This document shows positions 14,404-40,793 of a stretch of DNA of 64,000 bases, in pieces. The stretch spans positions 1 to 64,000 of the forward strand of contig CAMDQT010000005.1 of NCBI GenBank assembly GCA_945906305.1, written 5' to 3'. This DNA is from Ferrithrix thermotolerans DSM 19514. Its GTDB lineage: Bacteria > Actinomycetota > Acidimicrobiia > Acidimicrobiales > CAIXPF01. The position numbers were made by a program, and so were the translations under genes. Under the pieces are notes generated by a model. The model saw nothing but the letters and a program-made list of their open reading frames with translations, did not search any database and was not told the DNA's origin. The stretch's first letter is position 1, and the number at the start of each line of letters is the position of its first letter.

Positions 14404-15858
14404 TCAACCTCGCCGCCACGACGGTGGCGATGATCCCAACCGCGGCGGGGGTGAGTCCCAACGCACCGTGGCGCCGTCCAAAGTGCCCGGCATCGCGACA
14501 TGGCGCAGAGCGACCTCGGTCCCGTTCGGACCAAACCCGATGGTGTCCACCAGGAACGGCGCCACCTCCGCCAGACCCGGGTCGGTCAGTCCAGGCCCTT
14601 CAAGACGGCCTAGCCCATCGAGCCAACAAGCCGTTGCCGCCAGCGAGATCTCGGCGTGCCAGCAGCCGCCCTCCTGGCGTTGCCGGATGATCCCGGCCAC
14701 GGCGGCAAGTGCCGCCAACCATCCGCTGCCATGGTCGAGGGCCTGACAGCGCAACGGCACCGGCTCCGCCATCCCCGCCTCTCCGCCAGCCTCTGCGGCA
14801 AGGCCCGACACCATCTGGACCAGGCTGTCGAAACCCCGTCGGGCCGACCACGGTCCGCCGCTGCTGTAGGCCTGCACGTCGAGCACCACCAAACCGGGCG
14901 AGTGTGCGGCCAGCGCCGCCGTGTCGTACCCGAGTTTGCCCAGTGCCCCCGGTCGGTAGGACTGCACCAGCACATCGGCCTCGGTCAGTAGCTCCTCAAA
15001 GGCAGCGCGGTCCGAGGCCACCCGCAGGTCGAGCAAGGCAGACCGTTTGCCGAAGCCGGTGTCAAGCATCAGAGGCTCGATCTGGGGCAGGTGGCCCGCG
15101 GCGATGGTGAGCACATCAGCCCCGTGTGCGGCCAACACCCGGCCGCACACCGGCCCGGCAAGGACGCGGGCCAACTCCAACACCCGCAACCCGGCCAGCG
15201 GACGCCGTGCGCCACCTGGCGCCAATGGATCAAGCGATGCATCCGGCCATGGGCGCGGCGACGCACGACGCAAGCCCCGCTCACCGAGGCGACGCAACCG
15301 TACCGGGGCCGTCGCGGCCTCGATACGGCCCTGCGCATGGGCCCGCCACGACGCGGCGTGGCGCAACGCCGCCGCGACCCCTCCGGCTTCGATTACCGCC
15401 TCCTCGGCGGTCAGCGCTGGCAGGGTGGACAACCGGGCCGCAATCGCCTCACGTTGTGCGGGGACCCCCAGTGCGACAGCAGCCGCGTCGCCATGGTGGG
15501 CAAAGTTGGCGTGAACCTTGAGCCAGCCGTCCACACAGCGGTAATCCCCCGACAGCGGCGCCCAAAGCTCACCCACCGATCGGCCGTCACGGCGCAAGTA
15601 CCGTTCCGAGCGGAAGGCGACCTGCGCCGCACGGCTGTCAATGAGAACCTTTGGATAGTGGCCCGTGCGTTCGTAACACACCGCGCCGATCGCCGATGTG
15701 GCGGCCCCCACCACTGCCGCGGCGGCCACGTCGACCCGGAAGGGTCCGGGCAGCACTAAGCCGGGGGCCTGCACATCGACGGGTTCGAGGGCCAGGCCAA
15801 CCACCGATCCCAGTTTGGCAACCTGCTCGGCAACGAAGCCTTGCCCAGCATCGACCAT
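14404..15858 (-). CDS. family III CoA-transferase (CaiB/BaiF), unusual domain order
   Basis: 484 residues. The typical CaiB N-terminal Rossmann start (RPLAGLRVLELARVLAGPVC) appears only at about residue 218 and is followed by the D-x-G region DHGSGWLAALAAVAG. The first ~200 residues look like the small-domain part normally found after it (SGDYRCVDGWLKVHANF). The protein therefore looks partly duplicated or circularly permuted. It should move CoA between carboxylic acids; substrates unknown. ATG 15858 follows a TATGGT -10 element by 8 nt. Confidence 0.8.
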   Translation of the reverse strand: MVDAGQGFVAEQVAKLGSVVGLALEPVDVQAPGLVLPGPFRVDVAAAAVVGAATSAIGAVCYERTGHYPKVLIDSRAAQVAFRSERYLRRDGRSVGELWAPLSGDYRCVDGWLKVHANFAHHGDAAAVALGVPAQREAIAARLSTLPALTAEEAVIEAGGVAAALRHAASWRAHAQGRIEAATAPVRLRRLGERGLRRASPRPWPDASLDPLAPGGARRPLAGLRVLELARVLAGPVCGRVLAAHGADVLTIAAGHLPQIEPLMLDTGFGKRSALLDLRVASDRAAFEELLTEADVLVQSYRPGALGKLGYDTAALAAHSPGLVVLDVQAYSSGGPWSARRGFDSLVQMVSGLAAEAGGEAGMAEPVPLRCQALDHGSGWLAALAAVAGIIRQRQEGGCWHAEISLAATACWLDGLGRLEGPGLTDPGLAEVAPFLVDTIGFGPNGTEVALRHVAMPGTLDGATVRWDSPPPRLGSSPPSWRRG

Positions 15859-30888: not shown

Positions 30889-32448
30889 TCAGCAGGTGGG
30901 CCAGGTCCGCAGTGGCCGTTCCTCGAGTGGTGGAACGCGCCGGCCAGCGAGCAGGCCGAGGCCGCGGGCCAGCACGGCCCGGGTACTGGCCGGATCGATC
31001 ACCTCGTCGATGTTCATCACCCCGGCGGCACCGTAGGGCGCGGTCACCGCAGCCATCTCGGCGGCCATGGCGGCCTTTTCCTGCTCCGACATGCGATCCC
31101 CGTAGAGGACGTTGACGCCGACTCCGGGGTCCATGAAACCAATCTCGGAGCCAGGCCAGGCATACAACCCCTGGGTGTGGCCGGGCAGACCGTTGAGGGC
31201 CTGCCATGCCAACCCGAAAGCTTTCCGCACGATCACGGTCATGCTCGGGGCGCTGCACAACATCAGGGCCTCGTAAAAGCGCATCGCCCGGTAGAGCAGC
31301 CGGTTGTGTTCCACCTGTCGACCCACCAGGAATCCCGGCACATCCTGCAAGCAGATCAACGGGATGTTGAAGCTGTCGCACAGAACCAGCAGCCGCAGGC
31401 CCTTCTCGCACGTCGCCGGATCGAGCGTTCCGGCGTTGAACAATGGGTTGGATGCCAACACGGCCACCGGCCAACCATCGATCCGAGCGAAGCCGGTCCA
31501 CAGGCCGCGACCCATGTCGGGACGCAGTTCGAACATGGAGTCCGCGTCCGCGATGCGGGCCAGCACCTTGCGCATGTCGTACGCCCGAGACCGCTTGGCC
31601 GGAACCAGGGCCAAGAGGTCCGGGTCTTCGCTGATGGGCCCGAGGCCCGCCGCGGGCACGCGCGGGGCCGGGGTCCAAGCGTTGGAGGGTAGGTAGGACA
31701 GGAAACGCCGGATGGCGGCGTAGGCCTCGTCGAAGGTGTCCACGGCTAGGTCGATCTGGCCGGTTCGCTTGGCGTGGACGTCGACGCCGCCCAGTTCCTC
31801 GAAACCGATCTGCTCCCCCGTGGCCACCTCTACCACCCGGGGCGAGGTCACCGCCAGGCACGAACCGCGCACCTGAACCACGAAGTCGCTCATGGCCGAA
31901 GTGAAGCTCGACGCCCCAAAGCTTTGGCCCACGATGGCGGTGGCCACCGGTACCTGATGGTTGCGCTGGGCCAACTCCATCATCGAGGACAGCTCGGAAA
32001 ACCCTTCGGCCGACATAATGTCGGGCACCCGGGCCCCACCGGTCTGGCCGAAGTAGACGAAGGGGTGGCCACGATCAATGGCCAGGCGCAGCAGGCGGTC
32101 CACCCGCCGGCTTCCCACGACCGCCGTCGAGCCCCGTTTGACGGTGATGTCGTCACCGGCGACGGCGATGGGTCGACCATCGACCGTGCCGAACCCGCCG
32201 ATCTTGCCGTCGCCGGGGGTCGAGTCGCGGTCCTCGAGGCGCATCGAATGAGCGAACGTTCCCAACTCCTCGAAGGAGTCGGGATCGAGGAACCCATCGA
32301 GGTGCTCACGGATAGTGCGATCACCGCGTTCATGAATCCGGGCGATGGCGTCGAGCCCACCCATGTTGGTGCGGATCGTCAGAGCCCGTTCACGGCGTTG
32401 GGCGACAGGGTCGCTCACCGGCGGCACGAGGGGGGTTGGTTCAGCCAT
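30889..32448 (-). CDS. acyl-CoA carboxylase carboxyltransferase (beta) subunit
   Basis: 519 residues with N- and C-terminal crotonase-like carboxyltransferase domains (DDITVKRGSTAV, GQTGGARVPDIM for oxyanion 1; LICLQDVPGFLVGRQVE and GMRFYE-like region for oxyanion 2). It transfers CO2 from biotin to an acyl-CoA such as propionyl-CoA. No biotin carboxylase/BCCP gene is in the window. ATG 32448 follows GAGGAG; GTG 32457 is possible. It lies 16 nt after the paralogous gene, so it is second in an operon. Confidence 0.92.
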   Translation of the reverse strand: MAEPTPLVPPVSDPVAQRRERALTIRTNMGGLDAIARIHERGDRTIREHLDGFLDPDSFEELGTFAHSMRLEDRDSTPGDGKIGGFGTVDGRPIAVAGDDITVKRGSTAVVGSRRVDRLLRLAIDRGHPFVYFGQTGGARVPDIMSAEGFSELSSMMELAQRNHQVPVATAIVGQSFGASSFTSAMSDFVVQVRGSCLAVTSPRVVEVATGEQIGFEELGGVDVHAKRTGQIDLAVDTFDEAYAAIRRFLSYLPSNAWTPAPRVPAAGLGPISEDPDLLALVPAKRSRAYDMRKVLARIADADSMFELRPDMGRGLWTGFARIDGWPVAVLASNPLFNAGTLDPATCEKGLRLLVLCDSFNIPLICLQDVPGFLVGRQVEHNRLLYRAMRFYEALMLCSAPSMTVIVRKAFGLAWQALNGLPGHTQGLYAWPGSEIGFMDPGVGVNVLYGDRMSEQEKAAMAAEMAAVTAPYGAAGVMNIDEVIDPASTRAVLARGLGLLAGRRVPPLEERPLRTWPTC

Positions 32449-32464
32449 GTCAGTCACTCCTCGC

Positions 32465-33997
32465 TCAGCAGGTGGCCCAGGTCGACAACGGGCGGGACGT
32501 AGGCGGCCGAGGCTGCCTGGTGGACAACCGGCGCAGATCCTCCGCCAACACCACGCGGGTGTCGGCAGGGTCGATCACGTCGTCGAGCATCATCACCTCG
32601 GCCGCGCCGTAGGGACTCGTCGCGCCGACCTGGCGGGCGTGTTCGGCTTCGCGCTCCGCCCCGGTGGCGTTGGGCCGCACGACATTGACCGCCACCTCGG
32701 GGTCCATGAAGCCGATTTCGGCCCCCGGCCACGCATAGATGGCGTCCGCGACTACGCCCGAGCCGTTCAACGTCTTGAAGGCCAACCCAAACGCCTTTCG
32801 CACGATGACGGTAAGGGTCGGACACGAACAGTTCGACAACGCTTCTCGAAAGCGCATGGCCTTGTACAGCAGCCGATCGTGTTCCACTTGGCGGCCCACC
32901 AGAAAGCCCGGCACGTCCTGTAGGAACAGCACGGGGATGTCGAAACTGTCACACAGGACCAGCAGGCGAGTGGCCTTTTCGCAACCGTCCACGTCGATGG
33001 CGCCCGCGCCGAACATCGGATTGGAGGCGATGATCCCCACCGAGAAGCCGTCGATCCGGCCGAACCCGGTCGTGAGGTTGCGGCCGATGGTGGGCCGCAA
33101 CTCGAAGAAGCTGTTGGGGTCGCACAGCTTGGCGATGAGCCGACGCATGTCGTAGCCCCGTTTGCGTTCGACCGGCACCACCGTTCGAATCGAGGGATCC
33201 GCCTGGATCGGCCCGACCCCGACCTCGGCCAGGCGCGGGGCCGGCGTCCACGCATTGGCCGGCAGATACGACAAGAACCGTCGCACCGCCTCCCAAGCTT
33301 CGAGCTCGGAATCGACCCCGAGGTCGATCTGGCCGGTCTCGCGGGCATGCACGTCGACCCCACCGAGTTCTTCGAAGGAGATCTGCTCGCCGGTGGCCAC
33401 CTCGATGACCCGTGGCGAGGTGACGGCCAAACACGAACCACGGACCTGCACGGTGAAGTCGCTCATGGCGGCGAGGAACGATGAACCACCAAAGGACTTG
33501 CCCACGATGACCGTGGCCATGGGCACCCGGTGCCGTCGTGTCGCGACGCTGGGAAAGGGCACGAAGGCCGAGATTCCTTCCGACCCGAGGATGTCGGGGA
33601 TGCGGGCCCCGCCGGTCTCCCCGATGTGCACAATCGGCGTACCGTGCAGTAGGGCATGATCGACGAGGCGATCCTCCTTACGCATCGACACCAGAGAACT
33701 TGACCCCTGACGCACGGTTATATCGTCCCCGAACACCACGATCGGCCGACCATCGATGCGGGCGTGGCCACCAATCTTGCCGTCGCCGGGTGTGTTCTCC
33801 CGGTCCTCGGGGTTCGCCGAACGGGCAAATCGCCCGATCTCCCGGAAGGAGCCCGCGTCCACAAGGGCATCGATCCGTTCCCGGATGGTGTAACCGCCTC
33901 GGGCGTGGATACGTTCGATGCGGTCCACACCGCCCATCTCAGTGCGGATCGTTTCGGCCCGTTCGGCCAGATCAGCAGCCAATTCATCCTGGTTCAC
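32465..33997 (-). CDS. acyl-CoA carboxylase carboxyltransferase (beta) subunit
   Basis: 510 residues, paralogue of the next gene with the same blocks (GDGKIGGHARIDGRPIVV, GETGGARIPDIL, LFLQDVPGFLVGRQVEHD, AWPGAEIGFMDPEVAVNV). The pair may form a mixed hexamer or serve two substrates. GTG at 33997 with AGCAGG nearby is used. It is divergent from the GDSL lipoprotein gene (40 nt). Confidence 0.92.
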   Translation of the reverse strand: MNQDELAADLAERAETIRTEMGGVDRIERIHARGGYTIRERIDALVDAGSFREIGRFARSANPEDRENTPGDGKIGGHARIDGRPIVVFGDDITVRQGSSSLVSMRKEDRLVDHALLHGTPIVHIGETGGARIPDILGSEGISAFVPFPSVATRRHRVPMATVIVGKSFGGSSFLAAMSDFTVQVRGSCLAVTSPRVIEVATGEQISFEELGGVDVHARETGQIDLGVDSELEAWEAVRRFLSYLPANAWTPAPRLAEVGVGPIQADPSIRTVVPVERKRGYDMRRLIAKLCDPNSFFELRPTIGRNLTTGFGRIDGFSVGIIASNPMFGAGAIDVDGCEKATRLLVLCDSFDIPVLFLQDVPGFLVGRQVEHDRLLYKAMRFREALSNCSCPTLTVIVRKAFGLAFKTLNGSGVVADAIYAWPGAEIGFMDPEVAVNVVRPNATGAEREAEHARQVGATSPYGAAEVMMLDDVIDPADTRVVLAEDLRRLSTRQPRPPTSRPLSTWATC

Positions 33998-36452: not shown

Positions 36453-36505
36453 ACCCTCGCAGCACTGCAGTGGACGGCCGCCGCCGGGGCGAGTACAACC
36501 ACGGT

Positions 36506-37552
36506 GTGCGATTCCAAGCGCGGACCCTCGACATGGACGACGACGACGCCGTGCAGCAGGTCTACCGCGAACGGGGCTGGACCGATGGGCTACCAGTCGT
36601 GGCGCCGACACCGGCCAAAGTCGAAGCGATGCTGGCCTATGGTGGATTCACCCCCGAGCAGGTCATCGGGTTCGAGGTGGTCAAACAACGAGCACTGACC
36701 GCCGAGAAGGTGGCGATCAACGCTGTCCTCGCCGGGTGTCTACCACCAGACTTCCCCGTCGTGGCAGCAGCAATTGAAGCGATGTGCAAGGAAGAGTTCT
36801 TGGTGCACGGGGCCACCGCCTCCACGGGCGGATGTGCCGTTCTGCTGGTAGTGAACGGACCGATCCGTCGCCAGTTGGCCATGTCCAGCACCTTCTCGGT
36901 GCTCGCTGGTGCAGACCGCGCTTCGGTCTGCATTGGCCGAGCGGTACGACTCGTGCTGCGCAACCTGCTCGAAGTACGGCCGGGCGAACTCGACCGTTCC
37001 ACGCTGGGCCACCCCGGCAAGCTGTCGTGGTGCATAGCGGAGGACGAAGAGGGCGGCGCACCTTGGCTCCCGCTGAGCGCCGAACGTGGCATTCCCGACG
37101 AGGTCAGCTCGGTCACCGCGTTCGCGGCGTCCGCCCCACGCCAGATCATGAACGAATGGACCACCGATCCCGTGGACGTTCTCACCACAGTGGTGGCGGA
37201 GATCAAGTCGACCATGCTGCACTATTCGATCTGGGCGGGGAACTATGCCGTGGTCTTCCCGCCGCAAATCCGCGCCGTGTTCCACCAGGCCGGTTGGTCC
37301 AAGGCCGACGTCCGCCAGTTCGTGTACGACAACGCAGTGGTCCACCGCTACGACTGGGAACGAGTCGGCAAGGCCGCCGTGGTGAACGAACGTAACCGCG
37401 ACTTCCGCTACCGTGCCCTACCCTCCCCCGATCACCTACTGGTGATTGCCGCAGGCGGTGAAGCGGGCGGATTTGCCGCGGTCATCCCGCCGTGGCTCGG
37501 CCCGAAGTCGGCCGCCACCACCGCAGCCATCGGCGTCTGCGTCGACTGCTGA
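36506..37552 (+). CDS. conserved partner of UGSC selenoprotein, function unknown
   Basis: 348 residues from GTG 36506 (ATG 36533 is an alternative). It is not a recognised enzyme. Conserved-looking blocks are YRERGWTDGLPVVAPT near the N-terminus, AGCLPPDFPVVAAAIEAM, HGATASTGGCAVLLVVNGP, and WAGNYAVVFPPQ; the end is IGVCVDC, two cysteines two residues apart at the very C-terminus. It lies 27 nt upstream of the UGSC gene, in the same frame. The C-terminal Cys pair could exchange electrons with a selenol, but this is speculation. Confidence 0.75.
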   Translation: MRFQARTLDMDDDDAVQQVYRERGWTDGLPVVAPTPAKVEAMLAYGGFTPEQVIGFEVVKQRALTAEKVAINAVLAGCLPPDFPVVAAAIEAMCKEEFLVHGATASTGGCAVLLVVNGPIRRQLAMSSTFSVLAGADRASVCIGRAVRLVLRNLLEVRPGELDRSTLGHPGKLSWCIAEDEEGGAPWLPLSAERGIPDEVSSVTAFAASAPRQIMNEWTTDPVDVLTTVVAEIKSTMLHYSIWAGNYAVVFPPQIRAVFHQAGWSKADVRQFVYDNAVVHRYDWERVGKAAVVNERNRDFRYRALPSPDHLLVIAAGGEAGGFAAVIPPWLGPKSAATTAAIGVCVDC

Positions 37553-37579
37553 AACCCCCAGGTCGAAAGGAACCTACCC

Positions 37580-38104
37580 ATGAGTATGACGGTGCTCGAC
37601 CCCAGCTTCGAGGAGGCCGCCGCCCCCTTCGCCCTGCCCGAACGGCCCCGCTCGCTGGCGGGTGGGACCGTTGGCTTCATCTCCAACGGCAAGCAGGGGA
37701 CCAAGGGGTTTTTCGCCCACCTGGAGCGGCTGTTGCGCGACGAGTGGGGCGTGGCGGATGTCGTCTACCGCACCAAGAAGAACTACTCGGCCCCAGCAGA
37801 GACGGAGCTGATCAACGAGGCCGCCGGCTGGGCCGCGACCTTTGCCGGAATCGGCGATTGAGGTAGCTGCTCGTCGTGCAGTTTGCACGACGCTCTCAGT
37901 GCCGAACGCGTCGGCACCCCCGCTGTTGGGGTGATGACCGTACCGTTCGTAAACGGGGCCGAACTCATGGCCCAGGCGCTCGGCGTGCCGGGCTATCGCT
38001 TCGTCGTCATTGCCCATCCAATCTCCTCGGCCACCGACGCCGAGATCGAGGCCAAGGCCCGCGACACCTTGGAACAGGCCCGGTCGCTACTACTCGGCGG
38101 CTGA
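37580..38104 (+). CDS. UGSC-family selenoprotein, UGA recoded at 37859-37861
   Basis: 174 residues when TGA 37859-37861 is read as Sec (residue 94). Upstream half: LAGGTVGFISNGKQGTKGF and INEAAGWAATFAGIGD; then U-G-S-C-S-S-C-S-L-H-D-A-L, and the second half VGTPAVGVMTVPFVNGAEL ... VVIAHPISSATDAEI. The motif U-G-S-C at this point defines the UGSC (seleno)protein family, whose function is not established. A SECIS-like hairpin follows the TGA. ATG 37580 has AAGGA 8 nt upstream. The frame has no other stop. Confidence 0.9.
37862..37892 (+). promoter_or_regulatory. SECIS-like hairpin for UGA recoding in the UGSC gene
   Basis: CGTCGTGCA (37872-37880) pairs perfectly over 9 bp with TGCACGACG (37884-37892), leaving loop GTT that begins 19 nt after the TGA. 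G is the first loop base, as the bacterial SECIS model requires. Confidence 0.82.
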
Positions 38105-38175: not shown

Positions 38176-39462
38176 TCAGCTCAACGCCGCTCGATGGTCG
38201 GGGTGAGCGATGCTCCTCAGGGCCGCCGCACGAGCGGATCCGGCGAGGCCACGCACGTCCACCCGACCGAATTCGGTGACCACCACATCGGCGAGATAGT
38301 TCGGCAGCGTGATGGGGTTGGGTGCCTCGATCCGGCGCACAATGCGCGAGATGCGGCCTCGGCTCGCGGTGGCCCGCAAGGCCAGTACCGAACGGCCCCC
38401 GCTAGCGAGGCTGGCACCAAAAGCGAAGTCGGGCGCGCCGCCGGGCCCCGAGATCAGCTGGCCTCCGGCCACCTCAGAGTTGGCCGCGCCATCGAGGGCG
38501 ATTTCCACCGTGGAGTTGAGGGCCACGAACCGGGGCAGTGCGGCGAGCTCGGCGGCACCGTGGGTGACGTTGGGCGGGGCCATGAGCACTGCCGGGTTAC
38601 GATGAATCCAGGCTCGCATCCGCGCCGTGGGGGCCACCTCGGCGGAGACCATCGGACCCTGCACCGCCCCAGCTTCAAGAAGGTCGATACAGGCGTCGGA
38701 CACCAGGCCAGAGTGCACCCTTAGGCCCCGACGACTGTGCAGCGCGCTGAGTATCGCATCGGGGATCGAGCCGATCCCGAACTGGATCGTGCATCCATCC
38801 TCGACGACGCTGGCGGCGGCCATCGCTATCTGTCGACTGAGTTCGTCGAGTTCCTCCGCAGCACGGCTTTCGACGAGCGGTTCTTCGGCTTCAACCAGGA
38901 TGTCGATCTGATCGAGGTCGAGTTCGCCCGCGCCGAAGGTGTAAGGAATGTTTGGGTTGATCTGCGCAATGACCAGTGGGGCGGTGCGGGCCGGCATAAC
39001 GGAGCTTCCAACGCTCATGCCAAGGCTCACCCGACCATCGATCGGTGCGCTGACAGCGATGATCGCCACGTCCACCGGCAGGGGCCCGCCGGGCACGTGC
39101 AAGGTGGTGTGATCGGAAAATTTGCTCGGCAGCACATCAACGAAGCCGCTGTCCCACAAGTATTTGAAGGCTGGCGACGCCTGGCTGGTGAGAAACCGAA
39201 AAGGCTTGCCCGCATGTTGGAACAGCGCAGGCCGCTTTTGCATCATGGGCATGGCGATCTCGATGTGCTGCCACCGATCCGCGGCATCGGCCAGCGCCTG
39301 CATGAGATGCATGGGCGCCGCGGCCGCGCCGCCGACGAACACCCGGCTGCCCTCGGGGATCTCGGCGACCGCAGCCGCCGCCGACAGGGTCCGGGTGGCC
39401 TTGCCACCGGGTGAGGGTGGCAGGTACGGAGTGAAATCGGGCCGGGCAGGATCGAAGGCCAT
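38176..39462 (-). CDS. acetyl-CoA hydrolase/4-hydroxybutyrate CoA-transferase family protein
   Basis: 428-residue family I CoA-transferase (Cat1/AbfT type). N-terminal IPEGSRVFVGGAAAAP and CoA loop VEDGCTIQFGIGSIPDA are present; the catalytic-glutamate segment reads NSTVEIALDGAANSEVAGGQL with Glu in place. It exchanges CoA between acyl groups such as acetyl-CoA and hydroxybutyrate or succinate. It is divergent from the acyl-CoA dehydrogenase gene. Confidence 0.88.
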   Translation of the reverse strand: MAFDPARPDFTPYLPPSPGGKATRTLSAAAAVAEIPEGSRVFVGGAAAAPMHLMQALADAADRWQHIEIAMPMMQKRPALFQHAGKPFRFLTSQASPAFKYLWDSGFVDVLPSKFSDHTTLHVPGGPLPVDVAIIAVSAPIDGRVSLGMSVGSSVMPARTAPLVIAQINPNIPYTFGAGELDLDQIDILVEAEEPLVESRAAEELDELSRQIAMAAASVVEDGCTIQFGIGSIPDAILSALHSRRGLRVHSGLVSDACIDLLEAGAVQGPMVSAEVAPTARMRAWIHRNPAVLMAPPNVTHGAAELAALPRFVALNSTVEIALDGAANSEVAGGQLISGPGGAPDFAFGASLASGGRSVLALRATASRGRISRIVRRIEAPNPITLPNYLADVVVTEFGRVDVRGLAGSARAAALRSIAHPDHRAALS

Positions 39463-39499: not shown

Positions 39500-39505
39500 T
39501 ACCGT
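39500..39505 (+). promoter_or_regulatory. -10 element (TACCGT) for the acyl-CoA dehydrogenase gene
   Basis: TACCGT ends 7 nt before ATG 39513. The upstream GTG 39504 lies inside the element, so ATG 39513 is the better start. Confidence 0.45.
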
Positions 39506-39512
39506 GACGGCC

Positions 39513-40793
39513 ATGGCCATGGACCCCGTGCCCGTCTCCGAAACGACCGTCGTGACCGACGTAGCCACTTGGCTGGAGGAGAACTGGTCGCCCGATCTCA
39601 GCCTCGGCGAGTGGTGGAACCGGCTCGGCCGATCGGGTTGGGGGTTCCCGGCCTGGCCACAGGCGTGGTTTGGTCGAGGCCTCACCGGAAGCGCCGCACG
39701 GGCGGTGATAGCCGAACGGACCCGGCACGGGGCGTTCGGGCCGCCCTCGGGGATCTCCACCTTCCTGGCTGCGCCGACAATCCTGGCCTACGGAACCGAC
39801 GCGCAGAAGCAGCGCTACCTACCAGGCATTGCCACCGGTGCGGACGTGTGGTGCCAACTGTTCTCCGAGCCCGAGGCCGGCAGTGATATGGCCTCGTTGC
39901 AGACCAGGGCCGTTCGCGACGGTGACGAATGGGTCATAACGGGACAGAAGGTGTGGAGCTCAGGGGCACAGTTCGCCCGGTACGGCATTCTGATCGCTCG
40001 GACCGACCCCGATGTTCCCAAGCACAAGGGCATCACCTATTTCCTTATCGACATGCACCAAGCCGGCGTCGAGGTTCGGCCCTTGCGCGAGATGACCGGT
40101 GAGGCGGCGTTCAACGAGGTGTTCTTCTCCGAAGCGCGGGTGGCGGATGCTGACCGACTTGGCGCACCCGGCGAAGGCTGGCGTGTTGCTATGACCACGC
40201 TGTCCAACGAACGCGACCCCAACAACCCCGGGCTCGGCACGGGCGGCGGAAGTCTGCTCGGCAAGCCCGACCTGACCATGACGGTTGCGGCCTACCAGGC
40301 CCAACAGGCGGCGGAGATCGATGCCTTCTCCTTCGCCATCAGTGGTGGGGCGGGCGAGTTGTTCAATCGCTTGGTCAGCAAGTTCGGGGCTTCGGAACAT
40401 CCGGTCTTCCGCCAACAGCGCGCCGCATTGCATAGCGATCGGGTAGCTCAGCGTTGGACTGCGCAGCGAGCCAAGGCGAATGCCAAGGGCGGTCAGCCCG
40501 GACCCGAGGTTTCAACGCTCAAGCTCGGTGGGTCCAACGTTGGGCGAGCGCTACGCAACCTCGGCCTGCAGGCAATGGGACCGCACGGCATGCTTGCCGC
40601 CGCCGATGCCCCCGAGGATGGCCTGTTCCACAAGTACGCCTTGTTCGTTCCCGCCACTTCTATCGCTGGCGGCTCGGACGAGGTTCAGCGGAACATCATC
40701 GGTGAGCGGGCGCTAGGAATGCCCAAAGAACCGGACCTGTCGCGCGATCTGCCGTTCCGGGAGCTGCGGGTCACCCAACGGCCCTCGAACTGA
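39513..40793 (+). CDS. acyl-CoA dehydrogenase
   Basis: 426 residues. FAD/substrate motifs: FSEPEAGSDMASLQTRAV (~residues 115-132), VITGQKVWSSGAQFA, LTMTV region, and the C-terminal GGSDEVQRNIIGERALGMPK that binds FAD in the dimer. It oxidises an acyl-CoA to the enoyl-CoA; chain type unknown. The 3' end overlaps the convergent gene at 40771 by 23 nt. Probably part of the local CoA metabolism with the CoA-transferase across the divergent promoter. Confidence 0.92.
   Translation: MAMDPVPVSETTVVTDVATWLEENWSPDLSLGEWWNRLGRSGWGFPAWPQAWFGRGLTGSAARAVIAERTRHGAFGPPSGISTFLAAPTILAYGTDAQKQRYLPGIATGADVWCQLFSEPEAGSDMASLQTRAVRDGDEWVITGQKVWSSGAQFARYGILIARTDPDVPKHKGITYFLIDMHQAGVEVRPLREMTGEAAFNEVFFSEARVADADRLGAPGEGWRVAMTTLSNERDPNNPGLGTGGGSLLGKPDLTMTVAAYQAQQAAEIDAFSFAISGGAGELFNRLVSKFGASEHPVFRQQRAALHSDRVAQRWTAQRAKANAKGGQPGPEVSTLKLGGSNVGRALRNLGLQAMGPHGMLAAADAPEDGLFHKYALFVPATSIAGGSDEVQRNIIGERALGMPKEPDLSRDLPFRELRVTQRPSN

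Follow-up and report, generated by a model that had tools for sequence, protein, structure and literature searches.

A UGSC-family selenoprotein gene and its co-occurring upstream partner: candidate halves of a two-subunit selenoenzyme

We describe a new member of UGSC, an already known and functionally uncharacterised bacterial selenoprotein family, encoded in a 64,000-nucleotide stretch of DNA (hereafter the window). The in-frame TGA of the gene is, on comparative evidence, almost certainly decoded as selenocysteine (Sec). Together with the gene directly upstream, the UGSC gene very probably forms an obligate two-gene functional unit. The overall best explanation, which we favour with some reservation, is that the two products are the subunits of a Sec-dependent reductive enzyme. 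The relation to the partner and the fold of UGSC are additions of this work; neither had previously been worked out in the UGSC literature that we found. An obligate, co-evolving partner and a predicted fold other than that of thioredoxin tell the experimenter what to co-express and what to seek. The target would be a Sec-dependent two-subunit enzyme and not a stand-alone redox protein.

Results

UGSC gene and family assignment

The features discussed here are collected in Table 1. A single reading frame, preceded by a ribosome-binding-like AAAGGA at 37566-37571, is broken by one TGA. Reading this codon as Sec yields the sequence GIGDUGSCSSC at residues 90-100.

Table 1. Positions of the UGSC gene, its partner and associated elements in the window
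Feature	Position	Strand	Remarks
Cognate partner gene	36506..37552	+	348 aa; ORF start possible at 36470; ends CVDC-TGA; no match to a Pfam or NCBIfam family
UGSC family selenoprotein gene	37580..38104	+	174 aa; Sec at residue 94; stop TGA 38102-38104
Sec codon TGA (Sec94) in GIGD-U-GSCSSC	37859..37861	+	same position is TGA in relatives
Bacterial SECIS-like hairpin	37872..37892	+	stem 37872-37880 (CGTCGTGCA) / 37884-37892 (TGCACGACG), 9 bp; loop GTT 37881-37883

The read-through protein matches Pfam family PF24696 with 154.6 bits over profile positions 1-171 of 172 (gathering threshold 25 bits). The initial annotation had placed the protein in the UGSC family by its motif and proposed an HMM search as a check; this search confirms the placement. 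The score against NF041046, the UGSC_fam equivalog of NCBIfam, is 118.2 bits and lies slightly below the curated cut-off of 125. Therefore, the gene is assigned to PF24696 and not to the NF041046 equivalog. Genuine relatives score over a wide range against the same model, with 42-78 bits for natural fusions and 157.5 bits for a paralogue of the same genome (L059).

With the known UGSC (seleno)proteins (PF24696 / NF041046; ABI76733.1) the protein shares the domain match, the UGSC motif, the Sec residue with a hairpin downstream and the great preponderance of Sec over Cys forms. It differs in belonging to a subgroup with the sequence GIGDUGSCSSC and a partner ending in CxxC, and in narrowly missing the equivalog cut-off of the known family. 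An alignment of 35 members shows that U/C94, G95 and C97 of the motif U94-G95-S96-C97 are invariant, while the third cysteine, C100, is variable. UGSC was described as a major family of the GOS metagenome with 255 Sec and 21 Cys members (PMC2398784). A review from 2026 still lists it without known function (PMC13188914), in agreement with what had been noted for the window protein.

Selenocysteine decoding

The source genome contains selA (388.9 bits), selB about 1.3 kb downstream of selA (300.8 bits), selD (343.3 bits, itself with an in-frame TGA) and a tRNA-Sec with the anticodon TCA. Hence, the use of Sec in this organism, which had been deduced from the UGSC gene, is borne out by a complete machinery. 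For comparison, the source genome and 58 relatives (59 genomes) were searched for UGSC with Pfam. Matches were found in 31 genomes, nearly all of them with one in-frame TGA, and 28 of these 31 genomes carry a TGA-form gene. selA is present in 27 of the 28, the exception being an 84%-complete assembly, compared with 10 of the 28 genomes that lack UGSC (p = 2e-6 for the difference). The Sec position is TGA in 65 of 69 UGSC genes of the relatives, and likewise in every one of the 75 motifs scored in the loci from named genomes considered below. In dozens of homologues the frame does not end before the TGA but runs through it into the C-terminal half, with sequence conserved on both sides. Thus, the assignment of TGA 37859-37861 as the Sec codon within GIGD-U-GSCSSC stands, given this conservation, the machinery and the covarying hairpin behind the codon.

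SECIS-like hairpin

The perfect 9-bp stem with a 3-nt GTT loop was found exactly as initially claimed, with a folding energy of -16.8 kcal/mol and z = -2.45 (RNAfold). Taken alone it is only moderately unusual. Among 20,000 synonymous recodings of the peptide, 212 (~1%) fold equally well, and of the 1499 TGAs that the window has on its two strands, 7 have an equally good hairpin. The significance of the hairpin therefore rests on comparison. Among the TGA-form genes, 56 of 65 form a stem of 6 bp or more 3' of the TGA, with a loop that mostly starts with GT and lies 19 nt past the TGA. Eight stem pairs are 90% paired across 126 distinct sequences, and in most of these the loop begins with GT (G in 116, T in 116). 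Double-sided stem changes number 44 in the same set, as compared with a mean of 8 and a maximum of 18 after shuffling; this control is a guide and not a probability, since related sequences are not independent. The clearest case of covariation is the codon of the third cysteine, where TGC is replaced by TGG (Cys to Trp) in some sequences; in every such case the codon opposite reads NTC instead of NTG. By this comparison the stem is maintained through compensatory change. In the comparison with Cys forms that had been suggested initially, none of the four Cys-form genes retains the hairpin in place, although one has another hairpin nearby.

Rfam models had no match in the window at their gathering thresholds. 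A second TGA of the window, at 15108, is also followed by a strong hairpin. It was discarded as a candidate because it lies antisense to the reading frame 14404-15858 and its surrounding frame, judged by eye, resembles no protein.

Partner gene

The initial annotation was silent on the gene directly upstream. Among the 59 genomes its relatives are found in 30 of the 31 with UGSC and in none of those without (Fisher p = 5e-16). The partner lies within 600 nt of the UGSC gene in 63 of 69 cases, with a median gap of 62 nt and in either order, and six natural fusions join both proteins in one ORF of 567-597 aa. When named genomes were scanned with the partner alone, 80 loci were obtained from Pseudomonadota, Chloroflexota, Acidobacteriota, Myxococcota and others. 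Culturable carriers of the pair include Reyranella and Pseudonocardia strains. UGSC is adjacent in 76 of these 80, and it is from these loci that the 75 scored motifs, all with TGA, were taken.

Distances in the UGSC tree and in the partner tree are closely correlated (r = 0.95). The correlation falls to 0.31 when partners are swapped inside a genome, and none of 2000 within-genome permutations reached the original value. Therefore, each selenoprotein has its own cognate partner. A partner that comes and evolves with UGSC points to a two-part redox enzyme. The GOS paper describes UGSC fused to an uncharacterised domain listed as Unknown_1 (PMC2398784), which is probably the same partner.

The terminal CVDC-TGA of the partner was considered as a second Sec site. 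This idea was dropped, since TAG also occurs as the stop codon of partners with a terminal CxxC.

One relative (G017; L033, L063, L087-L089, L091, L093, L098, L099) has ten UGSC matches, most of them with their own partner, and at L093 a Cys-form UGSC is fused to the partner. A third UGSC gene of the source genome is seemingly split around the Sec motif over two contig ends (G000:C38:2-271, L101, and G000:C32:30044-30256, L100). A partner stands beside its C-terminal part, and the split looks like an assembly break.

Discussion

Predicted structures

The AlphaFold2 model of the UGSC protein, computed with 35 homologues, has a pLDDT of 94.7. It alternates strictly between β-strands and α-helices over five strands, and Sec94 is located between the end of strand 3 and the helix that follows it. 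The predicted fold is thus an alternating α/β, Rossmann-like domain rather than a thioredoxin fold. When the family was described, a likely thioredoxin-like fold and a redox role were put forward (PMC2398784). On that basis, and with an invariant UxxC, UGSC could be a general thiol-disulfide oxidoreductase or antioxidant with the partner as its protein client or reductase. The order typical of thioredoxin, with CxxC after the first strand of β-α-β-α-β-β-α, is however absent from the confident model, where Sec follows the third strand. The structural neighbours found with Foldseek and VIA-align likewise argue against it, since both lists are topped by generic doubly wound α/β domains (best Z 9.8, 3.5 Å over 130 residues). 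Moreover, one cognate partner for each paralogue is more in keeping with specific enzymes than with redox proteins of general function. We therefore regard a general oxidoreductase as rather improbable, and a dedicated two-subunit reductive enzyme as the better description.

Because the neighbours are generic, the fold by itself names no function. Folds of GrdB/PrdB or of Asp/Glu racemases do not appear in the fold-search list of UGSC, an absence that excludes nothing. The model of the partner has a confidence of 93.9 and no convincing structural relative. Conserved residues of the partner include DGLP, AGC and IGRA. Its residues ~205-335 weakly resemble chorismate-mutase-like and class I fumarase domains (Z ≤7.5). 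Searches by sequence profile found no solved structure for UGSC, the partner or the PrdB-like set.

Genomic neighbourhood

Beyond the UGSC-partner pair, gene content differs greatly from locus to locus and therefore does not point to a substrate. Genes resembling those of enzymes that act on CoA thioesters are frequent neighbours (acyl-CoA dehydrogenase, CaiB, enoyl-CoA hydratase-like), and SDR and TctC families are also found. Such surroundings, together with the predicted Rossmann-like fold and a nucleophile at the N-terminus of a helix, would suit a Sec that acts as the nucleophile of a non-redox enzyme such as a lyase, isomerase, transferase or hydrolase; the partner would then be the subunit chiefly responsible for binding the substrate. 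However, the families in question are common in genomes of this sort, Sec and C97 are equally invariant, and the rare Cys forms retain CxxC. We consider non-redox catalysis quite unlikely. That TGA 37859 is a true stop and 37580-37861 a truncated gene or pseudogene has a negligible probability, as nothing besides the codon itself favours it, and conservation into the C-terminal half of dozens of homologues, the SECIS covariation and the full Sec machinery all contradict it.

In the window, the pair is followed by an acetyl-CoA hydrolase/transferase-like gene (38176-39462, minus strand) and an acyl-CoA dehydrogenase gene (39504-40793, plus strand). A relative of the same genus (L058) has homologues of both genes in the corresponding position. 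Farther upstream, 30889-32457 and 32465-33997 on the minus strand are adjacent tandem paralogues which, judged by eye, resemble carboxyltransferase subunits of acyl-CoA carboxylases.

Relation to PrdB and GrdB

For a reductive two-subunit enzyme, selenoprotein B of the PrdB/GrdB type offers a comparison. The mechanism proposed for D-proline reductase begins with an attack of the PrdB selenol on the substrate, which PrdA holds; a mixed selenide-sulfide with a cysteine of PrdB is formed next (PMC3091704). UGSC resembles selenoprotein B in having Sec in UxxC at a strand end, with a helix and an ExxGIP-like turn after it, and in having a separate substrate-binding subunit, here the putative role of the partner. 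In contrast, UGSC lacks a match to PF07355, and its partner is not detectably related to PrdA or GrdE. With an E-value limit of 1e-3, neither Pfam nor NCBIfam gave a match to GrdB/PrdB (PF07355 / TIGR04483). A profile-profile comparison with PrdB-like selenoproteins (hhalign) gave a weak match of 64-83% probability and E ~1e-5 over ~80 columns of a common α/β core, with Sec aligned on Sec. With the motif residues masked, 64% is left and the alignment then begins behind the motif. Reversed or shuffled controls reached at most 0.5% and unrelated families about 1% or less, with one at 20% (E 1e-3). Kinship of the Sec domains of UGSC and PrdB is thus suggestive only.

A relationship of the partner to GrdE or PrdA was considered and dropped, as the profile comparison with GrdE, the pyruvoyl-proprotein counterpart, gave 0.1%. 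The pyruvoyl proprotein of the PrdA/GrdE type (PF09338) has no match in the source genome.

Proposed function

The arrangement of an invariant UxxC and a separate obligate subunit fits the logic of PrdB. Sequence comparison establishes the decoding of TGA 37859 as Sec, through the hairpin directly behind it, as well as the obligate pairing and the invariance of UxxC, and the fold is a prediction. The physical complex, its redox cycle and the class of substrate we infer as follows. The UGSC protein would be one half of an enzyme whose other half is encoded by 36506-37552. Sec94 would attack a substrate bound at the interface, that is, held by the partner. Subsequently, Cys97 of the UxxC motif may resolve the intermediate as a selenenyl-sulfide, and cellular thiols or thioredoxin may re-reduce it, completing a reductive cleavage like that of PrdB.

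That UGSC is a redox or reductive enzyme is reasonably probable, while PrdB-like bond cleavage in particular is a tentative proposal by analogy. A wider and rather speculative reading is that UGSC and its partner constitute an uncharacterised superfamily of two-subunit selenoenzymes. In this superfamily a Sec domain distantly related to PrdB/GrdB would be combined with an unrelated substrate-binding subunit. Duplication of paralogues, with up to ten UGSC matches per genome, would then have diversified it to cleave different catabolic substrates in many phyla.

The source genome also contains genes of PrdB-like selenoproteins (G000:C3:787-1179, L117, and G000:C9:94545-94931, L139) with an in-frame TGA in UPVC or UPLC. 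These UPxC proteins share the TGA-encoded Sec in UxxC with UGSC, but they form a separate family whose closest NCBIfam model is PrdB, with all scores below its cut-off.
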